From Cytophagales bacterium (lineage in GTDB: Bacteria; Bacteroidota; Bacteroidia; Cytophagales; Microscillaceae): 33,579 nucleotides of DNA. The notes beneath the pieces are model-generated. The model saw nothing but the letters and a program-made list of their open reading frames with translations, did not search any database and was not told the DNA's origin. The position numbers and the translations under genes are program-made. Below are positions 2,007 to 29,251 of this stretch, piece after piece (the first letter of the stretch is position 1; each line of letters opens with the position of its first letter). The stretch is taken from contig JAAFIN010000010.1 of the NCBI GenBank assembly GCA_013297825.1, positions 1 through 33,579 of the forward strand, written 5' to 3'.

Positions 2007-3353
2007 TTAATTATTTTTCAACCATTCCAAATAATCTTTGTCAGTTTTAAAATTTTGAAATTCCTCAAAATTATTATATATTTCTAATGCCCATTTTATG
2101 ATAGCAAAGGCTTCTTGTTTTTGGTTTAAAGCCAATAAAATTTTTGCTTTTATGCTATCCAATTTATCAGGTAAATTTTTTGTATTTATTTTTGTATTTA
2201 TTTTTGATTTATAAAAAAATGCCTTTTCCAATACTTTAAGGGCTTCTTTTGCATTTTCTTCAAGCGTACTTTTATTTCCCCAAAAAGCCATTTCGTAGGC
2301 ATAAGTTGTGTATTGTTCCATCAAATTGGCATCTGTGAAAGTTGGTTTTTTGTGCTGAAATTCCGTTTGAAACGCAGGAGAAAGTTCTTGAAAAACAAAT
2401 ATTTTTTCCCAATCCACACGATTTTGAAATTTTCTAATAAAATTTTCTGATAATGTTTGATACATTGAAATCATCCACCAAGTTACTTTATCTTGGTAAT
2501 CTTCAATAAAACTTTCTGAAAGTTGTTGTTTTTCTGAAAGATTTATCCAACCAATTTGATTAAATTTTTTGATGTATTTTCTTAAAAAACTTTCAGAAAC
2601 TCGCTGAAAATACGCTATATCGTGTTGCCATTGCCATTTTTTTGCAAATTCAATTAAAAAATCTTCTGAAAATCTTTTGTTGTAACCCAACACCATCCAA
2701 GTCCATTTATCTTGATGTTGTCTAATAAAATCTAAGGAAAAACTTTCAATGGTTGTCCTATTTGCTACATTTTTAAAATCAATTTTATGCTCAAAATCCA
2801 TTAAAAACTGTTCCGAAAAACTTTGACTTCTTGCCAAGAAAATCCAAATATCTGTTTGTTCTTGTTCATTGAAGGCATCAATTCTAAATAAATTTTTTCT
2901 TAAAAAATCCTCACTTTTTCGGTCATTTTTAAATACATATTTCCAATTAATATTATCTGAAAATTCTTCTAAAAAATCATTAGAAAGATAATTTGTCAAT
3001 ACAAAATGATAATCAATAAGGTGTTTATATTTACGCAAAAAATCTTCTGAAAAATGATTTCTCTCAACCATTTTATTCATATTTCCTTTGTATTTCGCAA
3101 GTAAATACGGATTATTATCAAGATTTGGATTAAAGTTTATTTTCGCCCATTTTATTTTTTTGGCACATTTTACCAATATTCCAATCGTTAATTTTTGATT
3201 TTCAGAAATAATATTCCAATCCAAAAAATCCGCATTTTCCAAGATAAAAATTTCAGAAAATTGGTAATTTTGGGCAAGGATTTTAAGGTCATTTTTGCCT
3301 TTTTCGGTGGCATCTATAACTTCGTTTTGGGCATTAAAAGTGAGGTTTTGCAT
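2007..3353 (-). CDS. Helical-repeat protein, paralog 1 (longest form, with C-terminal TPR-like tail)
   Basis: A 448-residue protein with no signal peptide, so probably cytoplasmic. It is built from an irregular ~23-residue repeat of the form LSExFIxxFxDKIxWxxISxYQ, for example LSENFIRKFQNRVDWEKIF. From about residue 340 it changes to an alpha-helical tail (YEMAFWGNKSTLEENAKEAL..., ALNQKQEAFAIIKWALEIY) that resembles a TPR-like solenoid. The first ~57 residues are almost identical to those of the two genes behind it at 3429-4850 and 4870-5337. No enzyme motif is visible. Similar aromatic/acidic repeats occur in uncharacterised proteins of bacteria and large DNA viruses (recalled, not checked). 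Function unknown; protein binding would be the obvious guess for a solenoid. It is the last gene of the three-gene array and the only one with the complete-looking tail. Confidence 0.85.
   Translation of the reverse strand: MQNLTFNAQNEVIDATEKGKNDLKILAQNYQFSEIFILENADFLDWNIISENQKLTIGILVKCAKKIKWAKINFNPNLDNNPYLLAKYKGNMNKMVERNHFSEDFLRKYKHLIDYHFVLTNYLSNDFLEEFSDNINWKYVFKNDRKSEDFLRKNLFRIDAFNEQEQTDIWIFLARSQSFSEQFLMDFEHKIDFKNVANRTTIESFSLDFIRQHQDKWTWMVLGYNKRFSEDFLIEFAKKWQWQHDIAYFQRVSESFLRKYIKKFNQIGWINLSEKQQLSESFIEDYQDKVTWWMISMYQTLSENFIRKFQNRVDWEKIFVFQELSPAFQTEFQHKKPTFTDANLMEQYTTYAYEMAFWGNKSTLEENAKEALKVLEKAFFYKSKINTKINTKNLPDKLDSIKAKILLALNQKQEAFAIIKWALEIYNNFEEFQNFKTDKDYLEWLKNN
3141..3353 (-). repeat. Conserved 5' cassette, copy 1
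   Basis: The 170 bp at 3184-3353 matches 4681-4850 with four substitutions and no gaps. Between paralogs 1 and 2 the near-identity extends to about 213 bp (3141-3353 and 4638-4850). Downstream of the block the genes diverge strongly. Confidence 0.9.
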
Positions 3354-3379
3354 TGGTTTTATTGAGATTTTAGTTTTTC

Positions 3380-3412
3380 AACTCTTGGAGGGTTTGAAAC
3401 ACTCCAAGAGTT
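3380..3412. terminator. Perfect 11-bp hairpin between paralogs 1 and 2
   Basis: AACTCTTGGAG pairs exactly with CTCCAAGAGTT around an 11-nt loop. It sits 17 bp after the stop of the gene at 3429-4850. It lacks a clean U-run, so it is either a weak terminator or a repeat element. A diverged relative with AAACCCTCCAAG occurs at 12406-12428. Confidence 0.45.
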
Positions 3413-3428
3413 AAGTCCAGAAATTTTG

Positions 3429-4850
3429 TTATAATTTATGTTTAAATTCTTGAATAAAATTTTCACTCATTTTTTGTTTTCTAAAAAGTGCTTTCCAATC
3501 TAATTTTTCTTCAAATTTTTGCATAAATTTCTCTGATAAAATTTGGGAATGTGAAATTATGTGCCAATAAATTTTATCTTCAAATTCTTGCATAAAATTT
3601 TCTGATAAAATTTGGTATTTGGAAACACGTTCCCAATTTATTTTATCTTGAAATTGCCTTATAAAGTTTTCTGACAAGGTTTGATATTGTATGAGGTCGT
3701 ACCAATCCCATTTTTCATTATGTTTTACCAAAAAATCGTGTGAAAATTTTTTTGCAGTCATCAACCCTTTCCAATTCCATTTGTCTTTGTATTTTTCAAT
3801 AAAACTTTCTGATAATGGGGCTATTACTTCTCGCAAATAATATAATTGCATAAAAGGATATTGTTTTTCGTATTCTTCAATAAACGTTTCAGAATATGGA
3901 AAATATCTAAAAATCCCTTCCCAATCATAATAATTTGTAATTTTAGGGGTTATTTTTCTAATAAAATCTTCAGAAAATCTTTGTTTTTTGGTTATTTTTA
4001 AAAAGTTTAATTTTTCAAAAAAATCAAAAATAAAATCTTCAGAAAGTGGTGTAAGTTTAGAAATAAGTCCCCAATCTAAACGGTGTGCAGGTTGCAATTT
4101 TATCCATTCCTCTGTGATATTTTGATAAAAATAATCAATATCAAATATTTTATATTCTTGTAAAAATGTTTTACTAAGATTATTTTTTTGCGTTTTTAGG
4201 ATATTATTTTTAGCCAAAATATATTTAAAATCTTCCACAAAAGCATCAGAAAGCACCACTTTATCCATCTTACTTGCTACACAATTAAAGTGGATTTTAT
4301 CCTCAAAATCTCTCAAAAACTGTTCTGAAATGCTTTGTTCCATAGAAATATACGACCAAGTTCTACTATCATTTTGTATTTTAGAAAGATTATTGCGTAC
4401 AAAATTTTCGTCTTTTCTATCCCAAAGAAACACACTTTTCCACTCAATTTTATCAGAAAATTCCGCCAAAAAATCATTAGACACAAGACGTGTATCCAAA
4501 TAAAACCATTCAAAAAGATGTGCATAAATACGCAAAAAATGTTCTCTATTATTTTCTTTTTTTACAAGCAAATCAAAATCTCCTTTGTATTGGGTAAATA
4601 TTTTTTCATCATTATTAAGTTTTGAATTATTGGAAACTTTCGCCCATTTTATTTTTTTGGCACATTTTACCAATATTTCAATCGTTAATTTTTGATTTTC
4701 AGAAATAATATTCCAATCCAAAAAATCAGCATTTTCCAAGATAAAACTTTCAGAAAATTGGTAATTTTGGGCAAGGATTTTAAGGTCATTTTTGCCTTTT
4801 TCGGTGGCATCTATGACTTCGTTTTGGGCATTAAAAGTGAGATTTTGCAT
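3429..4850 (-). CDS. Helical-repeat protein, paralog 2 (ends inside a repeat unit)
   Basis: This 473-residue paralog of the protein encoded at 2007-3353 has at least twelve ~23-residue repeats. The C-terminal ones are very regular: LSENFIRQFQDKINWERV, LSENFMQEFEDKIYWHII, LSEKFMQKFEEKLDWKAL, MSENFIQEFKHKL-stop. The consensus has LSE at the start, aromatics at positions 5 and 9, DK at 11-12 and W at 15. It stops in the middle of a repeat and lacks the TPR-like tail of paralog 1, which suggests either 3' truncation or a different natural architecture. The N-terminal ~57 residues are shared with both sister genes. There is no signal peptide, membrane segment or catalytic motif. The 19-bp gap to the gene behind it suggests co-transcription. 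Function unknown. Confidence 0.85.
   Translation of the reverse strand: MQNLTFNAQNEVIDATEKGKNDLKILAQNYQFSESFILENADFLDWNIISENQKLTIEILVKCAKKIKWAKVSNNSKLNNDEKIFTQYKGDFDLLVKKENNREHFLRIYAHLFEWFYLDTRLVSNDFLAEFSDKIEWKSVFLWDRKDENFVRNNLSKIQNDSRTWSYISMEQSISEQFLRDFEDKIHFNCVASKMDKVVLSDAFVEDFKYILAKNNILKTQKNNLSKTFLQEYKIFDIDYFYQNITEEWIKLQPAHRLDWGLISKLTPLSEDFIFDFFEKLNFLKITKKQRFSEDFIRKITPKITNYYDWEGIFRYFPYSETFIEEYEKQYPFMQLYYLREVIAPLSESFIEKYKDKWNWKGLMTAKKFSHDFLVKHNEKWDWYDLIQYQTLSENFIRQFQDKINWERVSKYQILSENFMQEFEDKIYWHIISHSQILSEKFMQKFEEKLDWKALFRKQKMSENFIQEFKHKL
4638..4850 (-). repeat. Conserved 5' cassette, copy 2
   Basis: Positions 4681-4850 differ from 5168-5337 at a single base over 170 bp and from 3184-3353 at four. 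The match to copy 1 begins at 4638, while the match to copy 3 begins near 4681. Confidence 0.9.
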
Positions 4851-4869
4851 TTTTATTTATAAAAAAATA

Positions 4870-5337
4870 TTAAAAATAATAACTGTCTTTATAGATTTTT
4901 GTAGAACCCATTTTTTTAAAAAAAGTTACAAGTTTTCTGTATCCAAAAGCATATTTCCAATCAAGTTTTTCGTGAAATTCCTCAATAAATCCTTCAAAAA
5001 AATCCATATATTTTAGTGCAAAATCTTCATCAAAAATTTCTTGTTGAAGCATTTTAAAAAAGTTTCCTTTGTATTTTTTTGCCAATAAAACCGCATCCTG
5101 ATGAATATTTGGATTATTAACTGCATTTTTCCATTTGATTTTCTTACCATATTTCATTATTATTTCAATCGTTAATTTTTGATTTTCAGAAATAATATTC
5201 CAATCCAAAAAATCAGCATTTTCCAAGATAAAACTTTCAGAAAATTGGTAATTTTGGGCAAGGATTTTAAGGTCATTTTTGCCTTTTTCGGTGGCATCTA
5301 TGACTTCATTTTGGGCATTAAAAGTGAGATTTTGCAT
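4870..5337 (-). CDS. Helical-repeat protein, paralog 3 (short form)
   Basis: At 155 residues this is the first and shortest gene of the array. It has the shared N-terminal cassette, then two or three repeat-like units (FDEDFALKYMDFFEGF, IEEFHEKLDWKYAF), and an unusual end RKLVTFFKKMGSTKIYKDSYYF. The ending aligns loosely with RKSEDFLRKNLF of paralog 1, so the protein seems to run out of frame homology or to have decayed there; no simple single-base frameshift restores a longer product. It may be a truncated relic or a functional short variant. It is preceded by the promoter that would serve the whole array. Confidence 0.75.
   Translation of the reverse strand: MQNLTFNAQNEVIDATEKGKNDLKILAQNYQFSESFILENADFLDWNIISENQKLTIEIIMKYGKKIKWKNAVNNPNIHQDAVLLAKKYKGNFFKMLQQEIFDEDFALKYMDFFEGFIEEFHEKLDWKYAFGYRKLVTFFKKMGSTKIYKDSYYF
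5168..5337 (-). repeat. Conserved 5' cassette, copy 3
   Basis: 169 of 170 bp match copy 2. The only difference is CATT for CGTT at about 5308. The near-identity stops abruptly at about codon 57, where the three genes diverge. Confidence 0.9.
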
Positions 5338-5409: not shown

Positions 5410-5439
5410 CAAAGATAAGTTTTCTAATTTTGCACCAAA
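5410..5439 (-). promoter_or_regulatory. Putative promoter for the repeat-protein array
   Basis: On the minus strand TTTG (5439-5436) is followed after 18 nt by TATCTTTG (5417-5410). This fits the Bacteroidota TTTG/TAnnTTTG pattern. The start codon at 5337 would follow a leader of about 65 nt. Confidence 0.5.
5425..5432 (+). promoter_or_regulatory. Putative -7 box for murB
   Basis: TAATTTTG matches TAnnTTTG and lies about 54 bp before the murB start. No clear upstream TTTG box is visible at the usual distance. It overlaps the divergent promoter of the repeat-protein array, so the two could compete. Confidence 0.4.
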
Positions 5440-5485
5440 AACTAAAATATATTTCTCCTGACACCTTTCTCCTGACACCTTTTTT

Positions 5486-6515: not shown

Positions 6516-7160
6516 TTAAGGTTGTTTTAAATATCTTTTTAAAGATGCAGAATTTGATACTTCACTTTTAAATTCAAATAAAACCGATATAATTTTTTTG
6601 TAAATTTCTTGAAAATCCTCAAAAGAAATTCTCAAATAATGACCGTGTGCAATGGTATTTCTGTGTTCTAATAAATCTTGAATAACTTGTTTTGGCAATT
6701 CCAATCTTTCAATATCAACCTGTGTCAATGCACAAACATCTTCAAGAACCTCATAATTAAGATTAGAGGTTTTTATGGGTGCTTTATTTGGAAAATGTGC
6801 TATTTCATCAAATTGATTGATAATTTTTTCAATTAATTCACTTTCTTTTGAATTTCGTTTATTTTCAATGATATTATTCAATTCGTATTTTAACAAAATA
6901 GCCACAAGATTATTTTGATAATCTTTAATTTTATGATTTTGATAACTCAAAAATTCGTAATAAGTATTAGCAGTTTTTTTAATAAAATCCTCCCAATGAG
7001 CATATAACAAAACAATACCTGCACGAATAGTTGCTTTTTGTATATCATTGCTTTGATTTGGCACCAAATTTTTAAATATAGCTAATTCTTTTCTTCTCCA
7101 CGAAAAATCAACATCAAGGATTTCATTCAATGAGGCTGGGGTTCTTGGTTGTTGATTCAT
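6516..7160 (-). CDS. MAE_28990/MAE_18760-type HEPN protein (probable RNase)
   Basis: The 214-residue protein has WRRKELAIFKNL near residues 21-32, VLLYAHWEDFIKK near 50-62, and LEHRNTIAHGH at 164-174. The last contains the HEPN catalytic motif RNxxxH (R167, N168, H172), which in active HEPN proteins cleaves RNA at the domain dimer interface. This combination fits the MAE_28990/MAE_18760 HEPN group as I recall it, often found next to DUF262 genes. Its start codon overlaps the stop of the DUF262 gene in an ATGA, so the two are translationally coupled. The likely role is a host-defence or toxin-like effector; this is inference from family and context. It is convergent with murB, with only 13 bp between stops. 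Confidence 0.8.
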   Translation of the reverse strand: MNQQPRTPASLNEILDVDFSWRRKELAIFKNLVPNQSNDIQKATIRAGIVLLYAHWEDFIKKTANTYYEFLSYQNHKIKDYQNNLVAILLKYELNNIIENKRNSKESELIEKIINQFDEIAHFPNKAPIKTSNLNYEVLEDVCALTQVDIERLELPKQVIQDLLEHRNTIAHGHYLRISFEDFQEIYKKIISVLFEFKSEVSNSASLKRYLKQP

Positions 7161-7672
7161 TTGTTTCTTAGACTTTGAAAAACCTCAAATTTTGCATTTT
7201 CATCAGATAAGTATCTAATTATTTTTATATCTAATCGTGACCTTTTGAAATCCAATTTTACTTGTATTGGAAATTTATCCCAACTCATTCCCTCCAAATC
7301 AGGTATTTTTTTTGTTTTTTCCAAAATAGTTTGTGGTAAGTTTTCATCAATTTCATTTTTTAAAATTCCTACAAATTGTAAAATAGTAGATATTCTTTGC
7401 GTACCATCTACGATTTCCCATTTTCCTATTTCATTTTGATATACGAAAATAGAATTAAGAGGAATGCCCATTAAAATGGATTCTATAAATTGAGTTTGCT
7501 TTGAAATTGACCAAACAAATGGATTTTTAAAATCAGGATTAAAAATAAGTTCTTTTTCTTTATACATACTTATAATCTCACCAATAGAAATTATATAACT
7601 ATCAGTAATAATTCTTTTTTTTATTGTATTGATTTTATCAACAATGCTTTCATTTATCATAATTTCTGCCAT
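7157..7672 (-). CDS. Short DUF262 (ParB/Srx-like, GmrS-type) protein
   Basis: This 171-residue protein matches the N-terminal part of DUF262. FNPDFKNPFVWSISKQTQFIESILMGIPLNSIFV (44-77) leads to the DGQQR-type motif as VDGTQRIST (88-96), which in related restriction proteins binds or hydrolyses nucleotide. It stops at KFEVFQSLRNK, just where a full DUF262 protein continues as FxxLNxGG and a helical domain; those proteins are usually over 300 residues. The ATGA overlap with the HEPN gene occurs at exactly this point. It is therefore either a natural minimal version whose missing half is supplied by the partner, or a truncation. A TAnnTTTG promoter lies upstream. The expected role is the sensor or regulator of a defence module (inference). 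Confidence 0.8.
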   Translation of the reverse strand: MAEIMINESIVDKINTIKKRIITDSYIISIGEIISMYKEKELIFNPDFKNPFVWSISKQTQFIESILMGIPLNSIFVYQNEIGKWEIVDGTQRISTILQFVGILKNEIDENLPQTILEKTKKIPDLEGMSWDKFPIQVKLDFKRSRLDIKIIRYLSDENAKFEVFQSLRNK

Positions 7673-24999: not shown

Positions 25000-26613
25000 A
25001 TGCAAATATCTGGCACTCCTTCTACTGCCCACTCACTTGATAAAATGGGCATCAATACCAATAAAACTGCTTTTTGGAATCTTAGTCCTGCTGAACTTGT
25101 GGAACACGCTTTGCAAAACAAAGAGGGTGTTTTGGCTGAAAATGGGGCTATTATGTGTGATACAGGCACTTTTACAGGGCGTTCTCCTAAGGATAAATTT
25201 GTGGTAAAAGATGAACATACTGAAAAAACAGTATGGTGGGGCGATATTAATTTTGAATTTTCTCCTGAAAAATTTGATGCGTTGCAGGCTAAAATGATAG
25301 CTTTTTTGCAAGATAAAAATCTTTATGTACGTGATGCCTACGCAGGTGCAAGCGACAATTATCGCCTAAAATTGCGTGTAGTGAATACCCAAGCGTGGCA
25401 AAATATGTTCTGCTACAATATGTTTATTCGCCCAGAAGCGTCAGAATTGGCAGGTTTTGAGCCTAATTTTACCATTATTTGCGTACCTGAATTTAAAGCA
25501 AATCCTGCAGAAGATGGCACAAAAAACGCTAATTTTACAATTCTTAACCTTACAAAAGGTGTTATTTTGATTGGTGGAACAGGTTATGCTGGTGAAATGA
25601 AAAAAGGTATTTTTTCAGTATTAAATTATACATTGCCACATCACCACAAAGTGCTTTCTATGCACTGCTCTGCTAATGTAGGTGCAGAAGGCGACACTGC
25701 GGTATTTTTTGGTTTGTCAGGAACAGGCAAAACCACACTTTCTGCTGATGCTTCACGCCAACTAATTGGTGATGATGAACACGGTTGGGCAAATGACCAT
25801 ATTTTTAACTTTGAAGGTGGTTGTTATGCCAAAGTTATTGACCTTACAAGAGAAAAAGAGCCAGAGATTTTTGATGCTATTAAATTTGGTGCAATCTTAG
25901 AAAATACAAGATTTACGCCTAATACACGCACACCTGATTATTTGAACAAATCAGTTACCGAAAATACACGTACCTCCTACCCTATTCATTTTATCCAAAA
26001 TGCCAAAGAAAAATCTGTTGCAGATATTCCTAAAAACATTTTTTTCTTAACTGCTGATGCTTTTGGGGTGTTGCCTCCTATTTCAAGATTGACCGCAGGA
26101 CAAGCAATGTATCATTTTATTTCAGGTTATACTGCCAAAGTTGCAGGTACTGAAGTAGGTGTATTAGAGCCACAAGCTACTTTTTCAGCGTGTTTTGGAC
26201 AAGCATTTTTGCCATTGCACCCTACACAATATGCGGAACTTTTGGGCGAAAAAATGAAAGCAAATAAAGTAAATGTTTGGCTTATCAATACAGGTTGGAC
26301 AGGTGGCTCTTATGGAACAGGCTCACGTATGAAACTTGGTTTTACACGTGCTATGATTAGAGAGGCATTGGCTGGTAATTTGGATAAAATTACTTTTGAA
26401 AAACACCCTATTTTTGGTGTTGAAATGCCAACAACTTGTAATAATGTTCCTGCTGAAATTCTTAATCCTCGCAACACTTGGGCAGATAAAAGTGCTTACG
26501 ACAAAAAAGCCCAACATTTAGCAGAATTGTTTAATAAAAACTTTACAAAATTTGCAAATTTTGCAAATGAAGAAATCCTTGCAGGCGCACCAAAAGTATT
26601 AGCAACGGTTTAA
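25000..26613 (+). CDS. pckA: Phosphoenolpyruvate carboxykinase (ATP)
   Basis: This cytosolic enzyme interconverts oxaloacetate plus ATP with phosphoenolpyruvate, CO2 and ADP, and is the entry to gluconeogenesis. The 537 residues are full length. Visible are TGRSPKDKF (59-67, substrate Arg61), GEMKKGIFSVLNY (198-210) and MHCSANVG (221-228) with the Mn2+ ligands, the P-loop GLSGTGKTT (238-246), the kinase-2 motif IGDDEHGW (256-263), FEGGCYAKVI, RTSYPIHFI, and GWTGGSYGTGSRMKLGFTRAMI near the end. The G-x-x-G-x-G-K-T loop marks it as the ATP- rather than the GTP-dependent type. It has its own promoter and is followed by a strong terminator. Confidence 0.98.
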   Translation: MQISGTPSTAHSLDKMGINTNKTAFWNLSPAELVEHALQNKEGVLAENGAIMCDTGTFTGRSPKDKFVVKDEHTEKTVWWGDINFEFSPEKFDALQAKMIAFLQDKNLYVRDAYAGASDNYRLKLRVVNTQAWQNMFCYNMFIRPEASELAGFEPNFTIICVPEFKANPAEDGTKNANFTILNLTKGVILIGGTGYAGEMKKGIFSVLNYTLPHHHKVLSMHCSANVGAEGDTAVFFGLSGTGKTTLSADASRQLIGDDEHGWANDHIFNFEGGCYAKVIDLTREKEPEIFDAIKFGAILENTRFTPNTRTPDYLNKSVTENTRTSYPIHFIQNAKEKSVADIPKNIFFLTADAFGVLPPISRLTAGQAMYHFISGYTAKVAGTEVGVLEPQATFSACFGQAFLPLHPTQYAELLGEKMKANKVNVWLINTGWTGGSYGTGSRMKLGFTRAMIREALAGNLDKITFEKHPIFGVEMPTTCNNVPAEILNPRNTWADKSAYDKKAQHLAELFNKNFTKFANFANEEILAGAPKVLATV

Positions 26614-26624
26614 AAAAAACGTAG

Positions 26625-26666
26625 GGGCAACCCTTGCGGTTGCCCAGAATATATGTGCGGTTGCCC
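26625..26666. repeat. GGGCAACC/GGTTGCCC palindrome with a duplicated right arm
   Basis: GGGCAACC (26625-26632) can pair with GGTTGCCC at 26638-26645 or at 26659-26666. The GCGGTTGCCCAxAATATAT unit occurs twice. It resembles a repeat seen in several Bacteroidota genomes (recalled). Confidence 0.6.
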
Positions 26667-26677
26667 AAAATATATAT

Positions 26678-26733
26678 AAAAACATCAACAAAAAACAAAT
26701 AACATTTGGGTTTTCTGTTGATGTTTTTGTTTT
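26678..26733 (+). terminator. Terminator after pckA
   Basis: AAAAACATCAACA pairs perfectly over 13 bp with TGTTGATGTTTTT (26716-26728) across a 25-nt loop, followed by GTTTTTC. Confidence 0.75.
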
Positions 26734-26769
26734 TCATAAAATTTGCATTTTTTTATAAAATTTTTGATT

Positions 26770-26777
26770 TATCTTTG
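26770..26777 (+). promoter_or_regulatory. Putative -7 box for the SurA-like lipoprotein gene
   Basis: TATCTTTG fits TAnnTTTG. A TTTG at 26742-26745 is 24 nt upstream, longer than usual. The leader to 26804 would be about 20 nt. Confidence 0.4.
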
Positions 26778-26803
26778 TCATTGAATTTTTTTTTACCTCA
26801 AAA

Positions 26804-27694
26804 ATGACCAACAACAAGCATCTGGAAGCGACTACTAAAACATTTACCAAAATACTTATCAAAAATTTTATTTTTGTTTTTATTACTATTTTTATTTTTT
26901 CTTGTGGAAAATCCAATCCACAACAAGAAAAAACACTTGCACGTGTGGGTGATAAAAAACTTTATGCAAAAGACCTCATAGGACTTGTAGGTATAGGAAC
27001 TAACAAAAAAGATAGCATTGAAATCATCAATCGTTATATGCAAACGTGGATTAGAAAACAACTACTTTTGCAACAAGCACAAAAAGATACCAAAATCAAT
27101 GAAAATGAAATAGAACGCAAACTTTTGGATTATCGTTATGATTTGTTGGCATACGAATTTGAAAAAGATTATGTCAAAAAAAACCTTGATACCAATGTAA
27201 AACAAACTGAAATAGATGATTATTATAAAAATAATCCTGCTAATTTTGAATTAAAACAAAATATTATAAAGGCTTTTTTGATAAAAACAACCAAAAACGA
27301 AGAAAAAAAAGATGAAATTCGTACTACTATCTCACAAGGCGATAACCAAAAAATAAAAGAACTTTGTGCAAAATCTTCTTTTCAAGCAATATTAAATGAT
27401 AGCACTTGGGTTGAGTTTGAACAAATGATAAAAAATACGCCTTTTCAACAAATTGCTAATAAAACAGACTTTTTGCGTGCCAATCGCTTTTCTGAAAGTT
27501 CTGATGATGTTTCTACCTATTATCTTTTGATAAAAGATTACAAAATTTCTAATCAACCTTCGCCTTTGGAATTTGTAAGAAATCGCATCAAACAAATGAT
27601 TGTTAATCAAAGAAAAGTACAACTTCTTCAAAAAATGGAAAAACAAATGTATGAAGATGCTAAAAAAAATAAAACTTTTGAAATATTTAAGTAA
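26804..27694 (+). CDS. SurA/PrsA-like periplasmic chaperone lipoprotein without a rotamase domain
   Basis: The 296-residue protein has a long N-region, a hydrophobic stretch and a lipobox ending FIFSCGKS (Cys at about 34), so it is a lipoprotein. The mature part begins LARVGDKKLYAKDL and contains NRYMQTWIRKQLLLQQAQKD and IERKLLDYRYDLLAYEFEKDYVKKNL...VKQTEIDDYYKNNPANF. This arrangement is the SurA_N-type helical chaperone domain, as in peptidylprolyl isomerases of this phylum. The region where a parvulin domain would follow is not recognisable, so it is probably a chaperone and not an active isomerase. In related genomes such genes often occur in clusters of two or three; here it is single. 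It may help fold outer-membrane proteins (inference). Confidence 0.8.
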   Translation: MTNNKHLEATTKTFTKILIKNFIFVFITIFIFSCGKSNPQQEKTLARVGDKKLYAKDLIGLVGIGTNKKDSIEIINRYMQTWIRKQLLLQQAQKDTKINENEIERKLLDYRYDLLAYEFEKDYVKKNLDTNVKQTEIDDYYKNNPANFELKQNIIKAFLIKTTKNEEKKDEIRTTISQGDNQKIKELCAKSSFQAILNDSTWVEFEQMIKNTPFQQIANKTDFLRANRFSESSDDVSTYYLLIKDYKISNQPSPLEFVRNRIKQMIVNQRKVQLLQKMEKQMYEDAKKNKTFEIFK

Positions 27695-27822
27695 ATGATG
27701 AATGATGAATTATGGATTATAAATTATGAATTATGAATGATGAATTATTCTCTAATAATTTTTGTGAAATGCTTTTTTTTATTTAGGTGTCATTCTGAAA
27801 GAATCTGGCTGTTTGGCTGTTC
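27695..27822. repeat. Composite intergenic repeats
   Basis: ATGATGAATTATGAATTATAAATT-type words (27695-27750) are followed by a copy of TAGGTGTCATTCTGAAAG...GGCTGTTTGGCTGTT that closely matches 15171-15207. No gene is seen up to the tandem array. Confidence 0.75.
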
Positions 27823-27922
27823 TTGGCAATAAAACGGTAATGTTTTTATATAATACAAAAATATTTCTTTATTTTTTTAATAAAAATTATTATATAGTTC
27901 ATTAAATTTAATAAATAGATAT

Positions 27923-28164
27923 TTTAATTTAATACTTAAATCATTTATTTTAATAAATAATAACTACAATTTAATATTTAAAGTATTTATTTTAATAAAT
28001 AACAATTACAATTTAACATTTAAAGCACTTATTTTAATAAATAACAATTACAATTTAATATTTAAAGCATTTATTTTAATAAATAACAATCACAATTTAA
28101 TATTTAAAGCATTTATTTTAATAAATAACAATTACAATTTAATACTTAAAGCATTTATTTTAAT
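27923..28164. repeat. 42-bp AT-rich tandem array, about six units
   Basis: Units begin near 27923, 27965, 28007, 28049, 28091 and 28133, an exact 42-bp period. The consensus includes ACAATTTAATATTTAAAGC and the imperfect palindrome ATTTATTTTAATAAAT. The unit is four helical turns, and the A/T tracts recur in phase, so the DNA is likely curved. It ends about 45 bp before the rluD-like start codon. The region 27823-28207 holds no gene. Confidence 0.9.
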
Positions 28165-28207
28165 ATTTTAAAAATACAATCTAATATTATAAAATAAAAA
28201 TACAATA

Positions 28208-29251
28208 ATGAATAACGACAATGAAGATGATTTTGTAGATGAGGAAGATGAAGAACAACATCTACAAGAATTATTTGAGCATTTTGCTATAATAGTAGAT
28301 AAAGGTCAAGAATTATTAAGAATTGATAAATACCTTTTGAATAGATTTAGCAAAATAAGCAGAAACAAAATACAAAATAGCATAGACGCAGGATTTATTA
28401 AGGTAAATGGTAGAGAAACAAAAGCCAATTATAAAGTAAAACCTTTTGACGATATACGAATATCTTTCCCAAAGCCACCACGCAACGGTGATATTATACC
28501 TGAAAACATACCACTTGATATAGTATATGAAGACAATGATATGCTTATTATCAACAAAAAACCAGGTATGGTTGTACACCCAGCGTTTAATAATTGGAAT
28601 GGTACTTTACTCAATGCACTTGCCTATCGTTTTGATAATCTTCCCAAAAATGCTGATGAAAGGTTAGGACTTGTGCATAGAATTGACAAAGATACCTCTG
28701 GACTTTTGGTCATAGCCAAAACAGATGAATCTTTAACTTATTTATGCAAGCAATTTTTTGACCACACTATAGAAAGAACCTATTATGCCCTCGTTTGGGG
28801 CGTTCCAAAAGAGAAAAAAGGAACGATAAATGTGCATATTGGCAGAAGTGCAAAGGATAGACGTGTGATGACCGCCTATCCAACAGGCGAATATGGCAAA
28901 CACGCCATCACACATTATGAAGTTTTAGAAACATTTGGCGATTATGTGTCTTTGGTAAAATGTAATCTTGAAACAGGTCGCACTCATCAGATAAGGGCAC
29001 ACTTTAAATACATTGGACACCCACTTTTTGGCGATATGACTTATGGAGGAGATGCCATACTTAGAGGACAACAAACCGCAAAGTATGTTCAATTTGTGCA
29101 AAATTGCTTTGAAATACTTCCACGCCAAGCATTACACGCCAAATCTTTGGGCGTTATCCACCCAACGACCAAAGAGTTTGCACAATTTAACTCTGAAATC
29201 CCTGAAGATTTGAAAGAAGTTATTGAAAAGTGGAGAAAATACACGAATTAA
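28208..29251 (+). CDS. rluD: RluA/RluD-family 23S rRNA pseudouridine synthase
   Basis: The 347-residue protein has an acidic N-terminal extension (NNDNEDDFVDEEDEEQ), an S4 RNA-binding domain (about 36-85, LLRIDKYLLNRFSKISRNKIQNSIDAGFIKVNG) and the catalytic domain. DIVYEDNDMLIINKKPGMVVHP precedes the active-site motif LGLVHRIDKDTSGLLVIAK, with catalytic Asp160. KCNLETGRTHQIRAHF and GHPLFGDMTYGG follow, as expected. RluD-type enzymes modify helix 69 of 23S rRNA; RluC/RluA-type targets cannot be excluded from sequence alone. It is behind the 42-bp array, and its 3' end runs into AGAATTAAGAATTAGG repeats. Confidence 0.93.
   Translation: MNNDNEDDFVDEEDEEQHLQELFEHFAIIVDKGQELLRIDKYLLNRFSKISRNKIQNSIDAGFIKVNGRETKANYKVKPFDDIRISFPKPPRNGDIIPENIPLDIVYEDNDMLIINKKPGMVVHPAFNNWNGTLLNALAYRFDNLPKNADERLGLVHRIDKDTSGLLVIAKTDESLTYLCKQFFDHTIERTYYALVWGVPKEKKGTINVHIGRSAKDRRVMTAYPTGEYGKHAITHYEVLETFGDYVSLVKCNLETGRTHQIRAHFKYIGHPLFGDMTYGGDAILRGQQTAKYVQFVQNCFEILPRQALHAKSLGVIHPTTKEFAQFNSEIPEDLKEVIEKWRKYTN

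Follow-up and report, generated by a model that had tools for sequence, protein, structure and literature searches.

The window analysed here, a stretch of 33,579 nucleotides, is part of contig JAAFIN010000010.1 of a Cytophagales bacterium (GCA_013297825.1). The genome is available as a draft assembly of 5.06 Mb in 362 contigs that is 95% complete and from which further copies of the genes described below may be missing. Open reading frame analysis confirmed the three tandem repeat-protein genes of 448, 473 and 155 residues that a preliminary description of this DNA had reported. They are transcribed along the minus strand in the order 155, 473 and 448 residues and are referred to as genes 1, 2 and 3 (Table 1). 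The array is flanked by a divergent murB gene on one side and by a gene for an FtsX-type permease on the other.

Table 1 Coordinates of the array genes and of features within and between them (positions of the window)
Feature	Position	Strand	Basis or description
Gene 1 (155 aa)	4870..5337	minus	ORF; head and short W-repeat stub
Gene 2 (473 aa)	3429..4850	minus	ORF; head and full W-repeat solenoid, tail-less
Gene 3 (448 aa)	2007..3353	minus	ORF; head, W-repeat solenoid minus middle block, helical tail
Homogenised head of gene 1	5161..5337	minus	177 bp, 1 mismatch to gene 2
Homogenised head of gene 2	4638..4850	minus	5 mismatches to gene 3 within 213 bp; initial 177 bp common with gene 1
Homogenised head of gene 3	3141..3353	minus	213 bp
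Middle block of gene 2 (~residues 195–345, approximate bounds)	3816..4268	minus	Protein alignments
Tandem unit duplication in gene 2	3502..3688	minus	TRF: 2.7 copies of a 69-bp (23-residue) unit, 79% alike
Helical C-terminal tail of gene 3 (~residues 340–448)	2007..2336	minus	Alignment, BLASTN
33-bp palindrome AACTCTTGGAGGGTTTGAAACACTCCAAGAGTT	3380..3412		Separates genes 2 and 3; one copy of a repeat dispersed in the genome

All three proteins contain tandem units of about 23 residues with the pattern LSExFIxxFxDKxxWxxIS, which is the hallmark of tryptophan-repeat (W-repeat) proteins. A hidden Markov model built from 490 viral units (consensus LSEDFIREFKDKVDWDYISKYQK) recognised gene 2 with an E-value of 3.4e-45, gene 3 with 1.5e-29 and gene 1 with 5.7e-12, so that the 23-residue LSExFIxxFxDKIxWxxIS repeat described before is real. 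The PHROG family phrog_3532 also matched all three proteins (E = 9.9e-71 for gene 2 to 4.6e-17). Sequence searches against Pfam, NCBIfam, PADLOC and the PDB gave no credible match; the best hit among the PADLOC anti-phage defence models had an E-value of 0.016, and a Death-domain match on gene 2 was rejected (17.9 bits, cut-off 22.6).

AlphaFold2 predicted a solenoid with two short helices per 23 residues for genes 3 and 2 (pLDDT 78.8 and 81.5, respectively), the per-residue confidence being mostly above 85 across the repeats of gene 3 and more mixed in gene 2. The shared head was modelled as a low-confidence beta hairpin followed by a helix and the first W unit. Foldseek against BFVD retrieved named proteins of the entomopoxvirus 'tryptophan repeat gene family' with E-values down to 1.4e-19 and also linked the solenoid to phage G and pithovirus proteins; the whole-length TM-scores were low (0.3–0.5 on the query), which probably reflects differences in how long solenoids bend. 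No solved structure was found below E = 0.05 in the PDB fold search. According to these models, the array encodes bacterial tryptophan-repeat proteins that form extended alpha-solenoids with a shared N-terminal cap. The literature searched reports no function for the tryptophan-repeat family. One member, AMV254, has been described as carrying an F-box (PMC7728225).

The heads were compared with positions numbered from the A of the ATG. Genes 1 and 2 show a single mismatch (position 30) ahead of position 178, genes 2 and 3 differ at positions 9, 36, 104, 123 and 173 ahead of position 214, and genes 1 and 3 have five mismatches within the first 170 positions. The 98–99% identity given earlier for a 170-bp head is therefore correct in substance, the value for genes 1 and 3 being slightly lower (97%). 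Overall, the heads are 97–99% identical across 177–213 bp and the bodies 57–63%. Identity starts at the ATG in all three genes, and the upstream sequences are unrelated. The abrupt collapse of identity that had been noted does not apply directly to genes 2 and 3, which are still 85% identical in codons 61–80 and collapse only after that. The head comprises the cap and the first W unit and is the most conserved part of the protein across genomes.

One further gene of this kind is present in the genome and is split by a contig break between the end of contig C275 and the start of contig C314. Both ends share an exact 126-bp overlap, from which we infer that these are neighbouring contigs, and the joined frame codes for 585 amino acids with no stops. 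No third assembly branch was detected at this break when one was sought. The W-repeat profile was detected in 11 of 390 genomes of the order and in 2 of 395 of the phylum, and the full head in 3 of the 390, each with different bodies. Thus, searching the genome and its relatives for the head cassette did not reveal a fixed domain linked to the same three bodies. None of the viral contigs searched carries the full bacterial head, and a plasmid search returned a single distant match, in Salinibacter ruber. In every relative holding both murB and the permease gene these lie on separate contigs, so no empty site could be defined in the relatives.

Two sets of relatives were informative for the comparisons below. 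G057 and G511 belong to a different family of the same order as the array genome and, judged by identical contig numbers and coordinates, appear to be the same genome. Their gene is split over two contigs (L030 5971–6774 and L031), and the contig with its first part ends in a sequence reading TTPNPSLGRRGI, which may be a dispersed repeat that has inserted into the gene or lies next to it. G488, from the same family as G511, carries five such genes on one contig, arranged in two groups.

Heads and bodies were contrasted by synonymous differences per site (Fisher test); NG86 synonymous rates are close to saturation and influenced by AT-rich codon use. For genes 2 and 3 the head had 0.09 differences per site and the body 0.54 (p = 2.5e-6), genes 2 and 1 showed 0.03 and 0.46 (p = 1.8e-5), and genes 3 and 1 showed 0.12 and 0.43 (p = 0.005). 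In comparisons with the dispersed fourth copy, the values for head and body were 0.58/0.58 (p = 1) and 0.65/0.61 (p = 0.85). The head and body are thus equally saturated in this comparison, which indicates that the synonymous sites of the head are under no special constraint and that the match between the heads reflects recent recombination. A stricter test that counts only codons coding for the same amino acid gave the same result for genes 2 and 3 (3/55 in the head versus 28/104 in the body, p = 0.0007) and was not significant for the pairs with gene 1 (1/57 versus 2/26 and 4/55 versus 5/33).

The age of the bodies follows from nucleotide identities. The bodies of genes 2 and 3 are 63% identical and their heads 97%; the G057/G511 gene has 65% body identity to gene 3 and 62% to gene 2, with heads at 71%. 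Since the two bodies are as distant from each other as from a gene of another family, they are old, and near-identical heads joined to old bodies mean that the heads of the three adjacent copies were homogenised recently, long after the bodies diverged. The dispersed fourth copy stayed outside this exchange. In G488 a tandem pair (25494–27167 and 27189–28922) has heads that are 89% identical over 120 codons and bodies at about 70%, with synonymous differences per site of 0.39 and 0.67, respectively (p = 2e-5); judged by these sequences, the pair is an older version of the head-limited homogenisation seen in the array. Gene conversion or recombination of the head, as proposed in the preliminary description, accordingly draws support from the synonymous-site tests, from the internal control that the fourth copy provides and from a second genome. 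The route would be gene conversion or unequal crossing-over, either of which leaves such a trace; the comparison covers the array genome plus relatives, with one genome per species.

Regarding the bodies, the second W-unit region and the later body are homologous and colinear in gene 2, gene 3, the fourth copy and G057, and an alignment places the body of gene 2 colinear with the fourth gene. The middle block of gene 2 is present in the fourth paralogue, partly present in the second contig of the relative and nearly absent from gene 3, which lacks roughly 150 residues there. The bodies are thus old colinear paralogues that differ through large block losses, not through unit shuffling. The tandem duplication near the 3′ end of gene 2 is the sole recognisable recent one, and BLASTN self matches agree with it.

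The tail of gene 3 is shared with the fourth paralogue (BLASTN 75% over 123 bp). Hence a TPR-like tail restricted to the last gene, as described before, holds among the three genes of the array and not for the genome, where the fourth gene has it too. Helices are predicted in this tail at low confidence (pLDDT below 50 beyond residue 380), and Pfam TPR models gave no match to it.

Gene 1 is probably a partly deleted copy. Compared with its paralogues it lacks about 11 residues near residue 115 and everything past about residue 150, and with a body dN/dS whose 95% range is about 0.4–1.1 it resembles a copy that has been shortened and has come under relaxed constraint. As the stricter codon test was not significant for this gene, rapid evolution of its body, instead of old age, may account for the divergence. 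Gene 2 looks intact and constrained, with body dN/dS values of 0.33–0.71 versus gene 3 and 0.33–0.61 versus the fourth copy. Its C-terminal end is the same final unit as in the tail-less genes of G488 and G511, and therefore it does not look truncated.

Other origins of the head identity were weighed against exchange between complete genes. A partial tandem duplication, in which a 5′ fragment containing the head was duplicated ahead of bodies of older or foreign origin, would account for an identity that has its start precisely at the ATG of every gene and ends variably (177 versus 213 bp), and also for gene 1 as a head with a short stub. We consider this unlikely, since every body is in register with its head and the bodies are homologous and colinear in gene 2, gene 3, the fourth copy and G057, so that each gene probably had its own head; the similar head-limited pattern in G488 also speaks against it. 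A view of genes 1 and 2 as degenerating duplicates of gene 3, their heads being remnants of a recent duplication, fits the short, internally deleted gene 1 with its dN/dS of up to about 1. This view is very improbable for the array as a whole: the open reading frame of gene 2 is intact, ends at its natural last unit and has a dN/dS below 1, and its body has diverged far more than a recent duplicate would and contains the middle block missing from gene 3. The question whether genes of the array are inactive degraded copies, raised at the outset, thus has a mixed answer, gene 2 being intact and constrained and gene 1 shortened and relaxed in appearance. The conservation of the head across genomes could raise the suspicion that the 5′ end is under strong selection for its protein or RNA sequence. 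Nevertheless, the head synonymous sites are saturated versus the fourth copy, no less than those of the body, and no Rfam family matched in the window; for the array genome the synonymous test already contradicts this idea, which we regard as extremely improbable.

Conserved-5′, variable-3′ gene families, in which a constant start is followed by a divergent remainder and homogenised by recombination, offer a further comparison. An antigenic-variation or recognition-repertoire locus with exchangeable solenoid bodies behind a constant head, as the preliminary description suggested, would suit the constant head and divergent solenoid bodies, the tandem arrays that also occur in G488 and many phages, and the one recent unit duplication. 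Unlike the conserved-5′, variable-3′ families, the array shows no sign of surface export or of a store of silent copies, and its bodies are old and not shuffled. The N-termini are polar, and among the window genes scanned none next to the array codes for an inversion system or a recombinase. No silent cassettes and no silent donor or promoterless copies were seen; beyond the array, only the fourth full gene occurs in the 95% complete genome. With bodies that are colinear and differ through block losses, the cassette-shuffling picture was not upheld, and we judge such a locus to be quite improbable here.

We favour, with moderate confidence, head exchange by recombination among tandem tryptophan-repeat genes with old bodies, combined with a function as cytoplasmic scaffolds. 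Ordinary homologous recombination between direct repeats (gene conversion or unequal crossing-over) would have homogenised the heads. The heads, as the best conserved part of the genes, would have favoured this process, and the exchange would have its 5′ border at the ATG, since the sequences ahead of it show no homology. The differences between the bodies would go back to old divergence, the loss of the middle block in gene 3, a large deletion that reduced gene 1 to a stub and the local unit duplication in gene 2. The constant cap might serve a common partner or nucleate folding, and the solenoid might provide a variable surface that binds variable ligands. The N-terminus MQNLTFNAQNEVIDATEKGKND is polar and has no signal-like segment, as judged by eye from the sequence; together with the solenoid and the lack of an enzyme domain this suggests that the proteins most likely act as binding scaffolds in the cytoplasm, their common N-cap being exchanged by gene conversion. 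As the family is patchily distributed and forms many arrays in jumbo phages, a role in phage–host interaction is plausible. There is a slight chance that the bacterial arrays are a recognition repertoire sharing binders with jumbo phages, whose recombination-uniform cap lets the array gain or lose bodies while ligands, perhaps phage or competitor proteins, turn over. The array would be a clean example of tandem paralogues in which gene conversion is restricted to one end. The tryptophan-repeat family, which occurs in insect poxviruses, giant viruses, jumbo phages and scattered bacteria, is poorly understood. A bacterial clade whose proteins have a defined cap and in some cases a tail, and whose concerted evolution is limited to the head, is a tractable non-viral system for finding the ligands of the solenoid.

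The predicted repeat fold is shared with the entomopoxvirus 'tryptophan repeat gene family' (for example MSV027 and MSV205; Mythimna separata and Choristoneura entomopoxviruses), which is likewise a multigene family in those viruses. The bacterial array differs from it in its distinct N-cap, in the homogenised heads of tandem copies and in the helical tail predicted in two bacterial copies. The 23-residue unit is also common to jumbo-phage proteins (PHROG 3532; Bacillus phage BpSp gp123–gp127, phage G gp558–gp563, Listeria phage LPJP1), whose genes are arranged in tandem arrays too; the family name has been used for a Bacillus jumbo phage as well as for entomopoxviruses. In contrast to the bacterial array, head-limited identity was weak or absent in most phage arrays tested: it was modest in L057 (p = 0.02), borderline in L061 and not significant in the remaining pairs tested. 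One viral contig carries eight overlapping W-repeat genes in a row with 3 to 10 units each (L050 2925–7534). In another (L067 3053–5300), a 630-aa W-repeat gene is followed by a 100-aa stub, the first 20 codons being 98% identical; the layout of this stub is similar to gene 1. A related repeat occurs in LPWS-type W-repeat proteins from the bacterial family of the array genome (G003, G004, G005, G012), which differ in their unit (LPWSxELLEKYxxKWDWxxLSxN) and have no common head and no tandem array that we could see. Two of them from one genus (L036 and L037, in G012 and G003) are 467 aa long and combine LPWS-type W-repeats in the N-terminal half with TPRs in the C-terminal half, the TPR region being based on Pfam matches in L036, the sole one scanned.

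Some further elements were observed around the genes. The 33-bp palindrome between genes 2 and 3 occurs at 26 sites in the genome, compared with none for a reversed-pattern control. A Bacteroidota-type promoter (TTTG-N-TAnnTTTG) considered upstream of gene 1 (5410–5439) was rejected, as the window contains 8 such sites versus 5.4 expected. Two perfect 14-bp copies of TTTCTCCTGACACC lie directly upstream of murB (5452–5482). About 1.2 kb from the array, across murB, a pair of minus-strand genes overlapping by 4 bp (6516–7672) encodes a protein similar to HEPN_MAE_28990 (E = 1.4e-29) and a short GmrSD_N (DUF262) protein with only 171 aa; the pair resembles defence-type gene pairs, and its G+C content is low (25–27%), as in the array.
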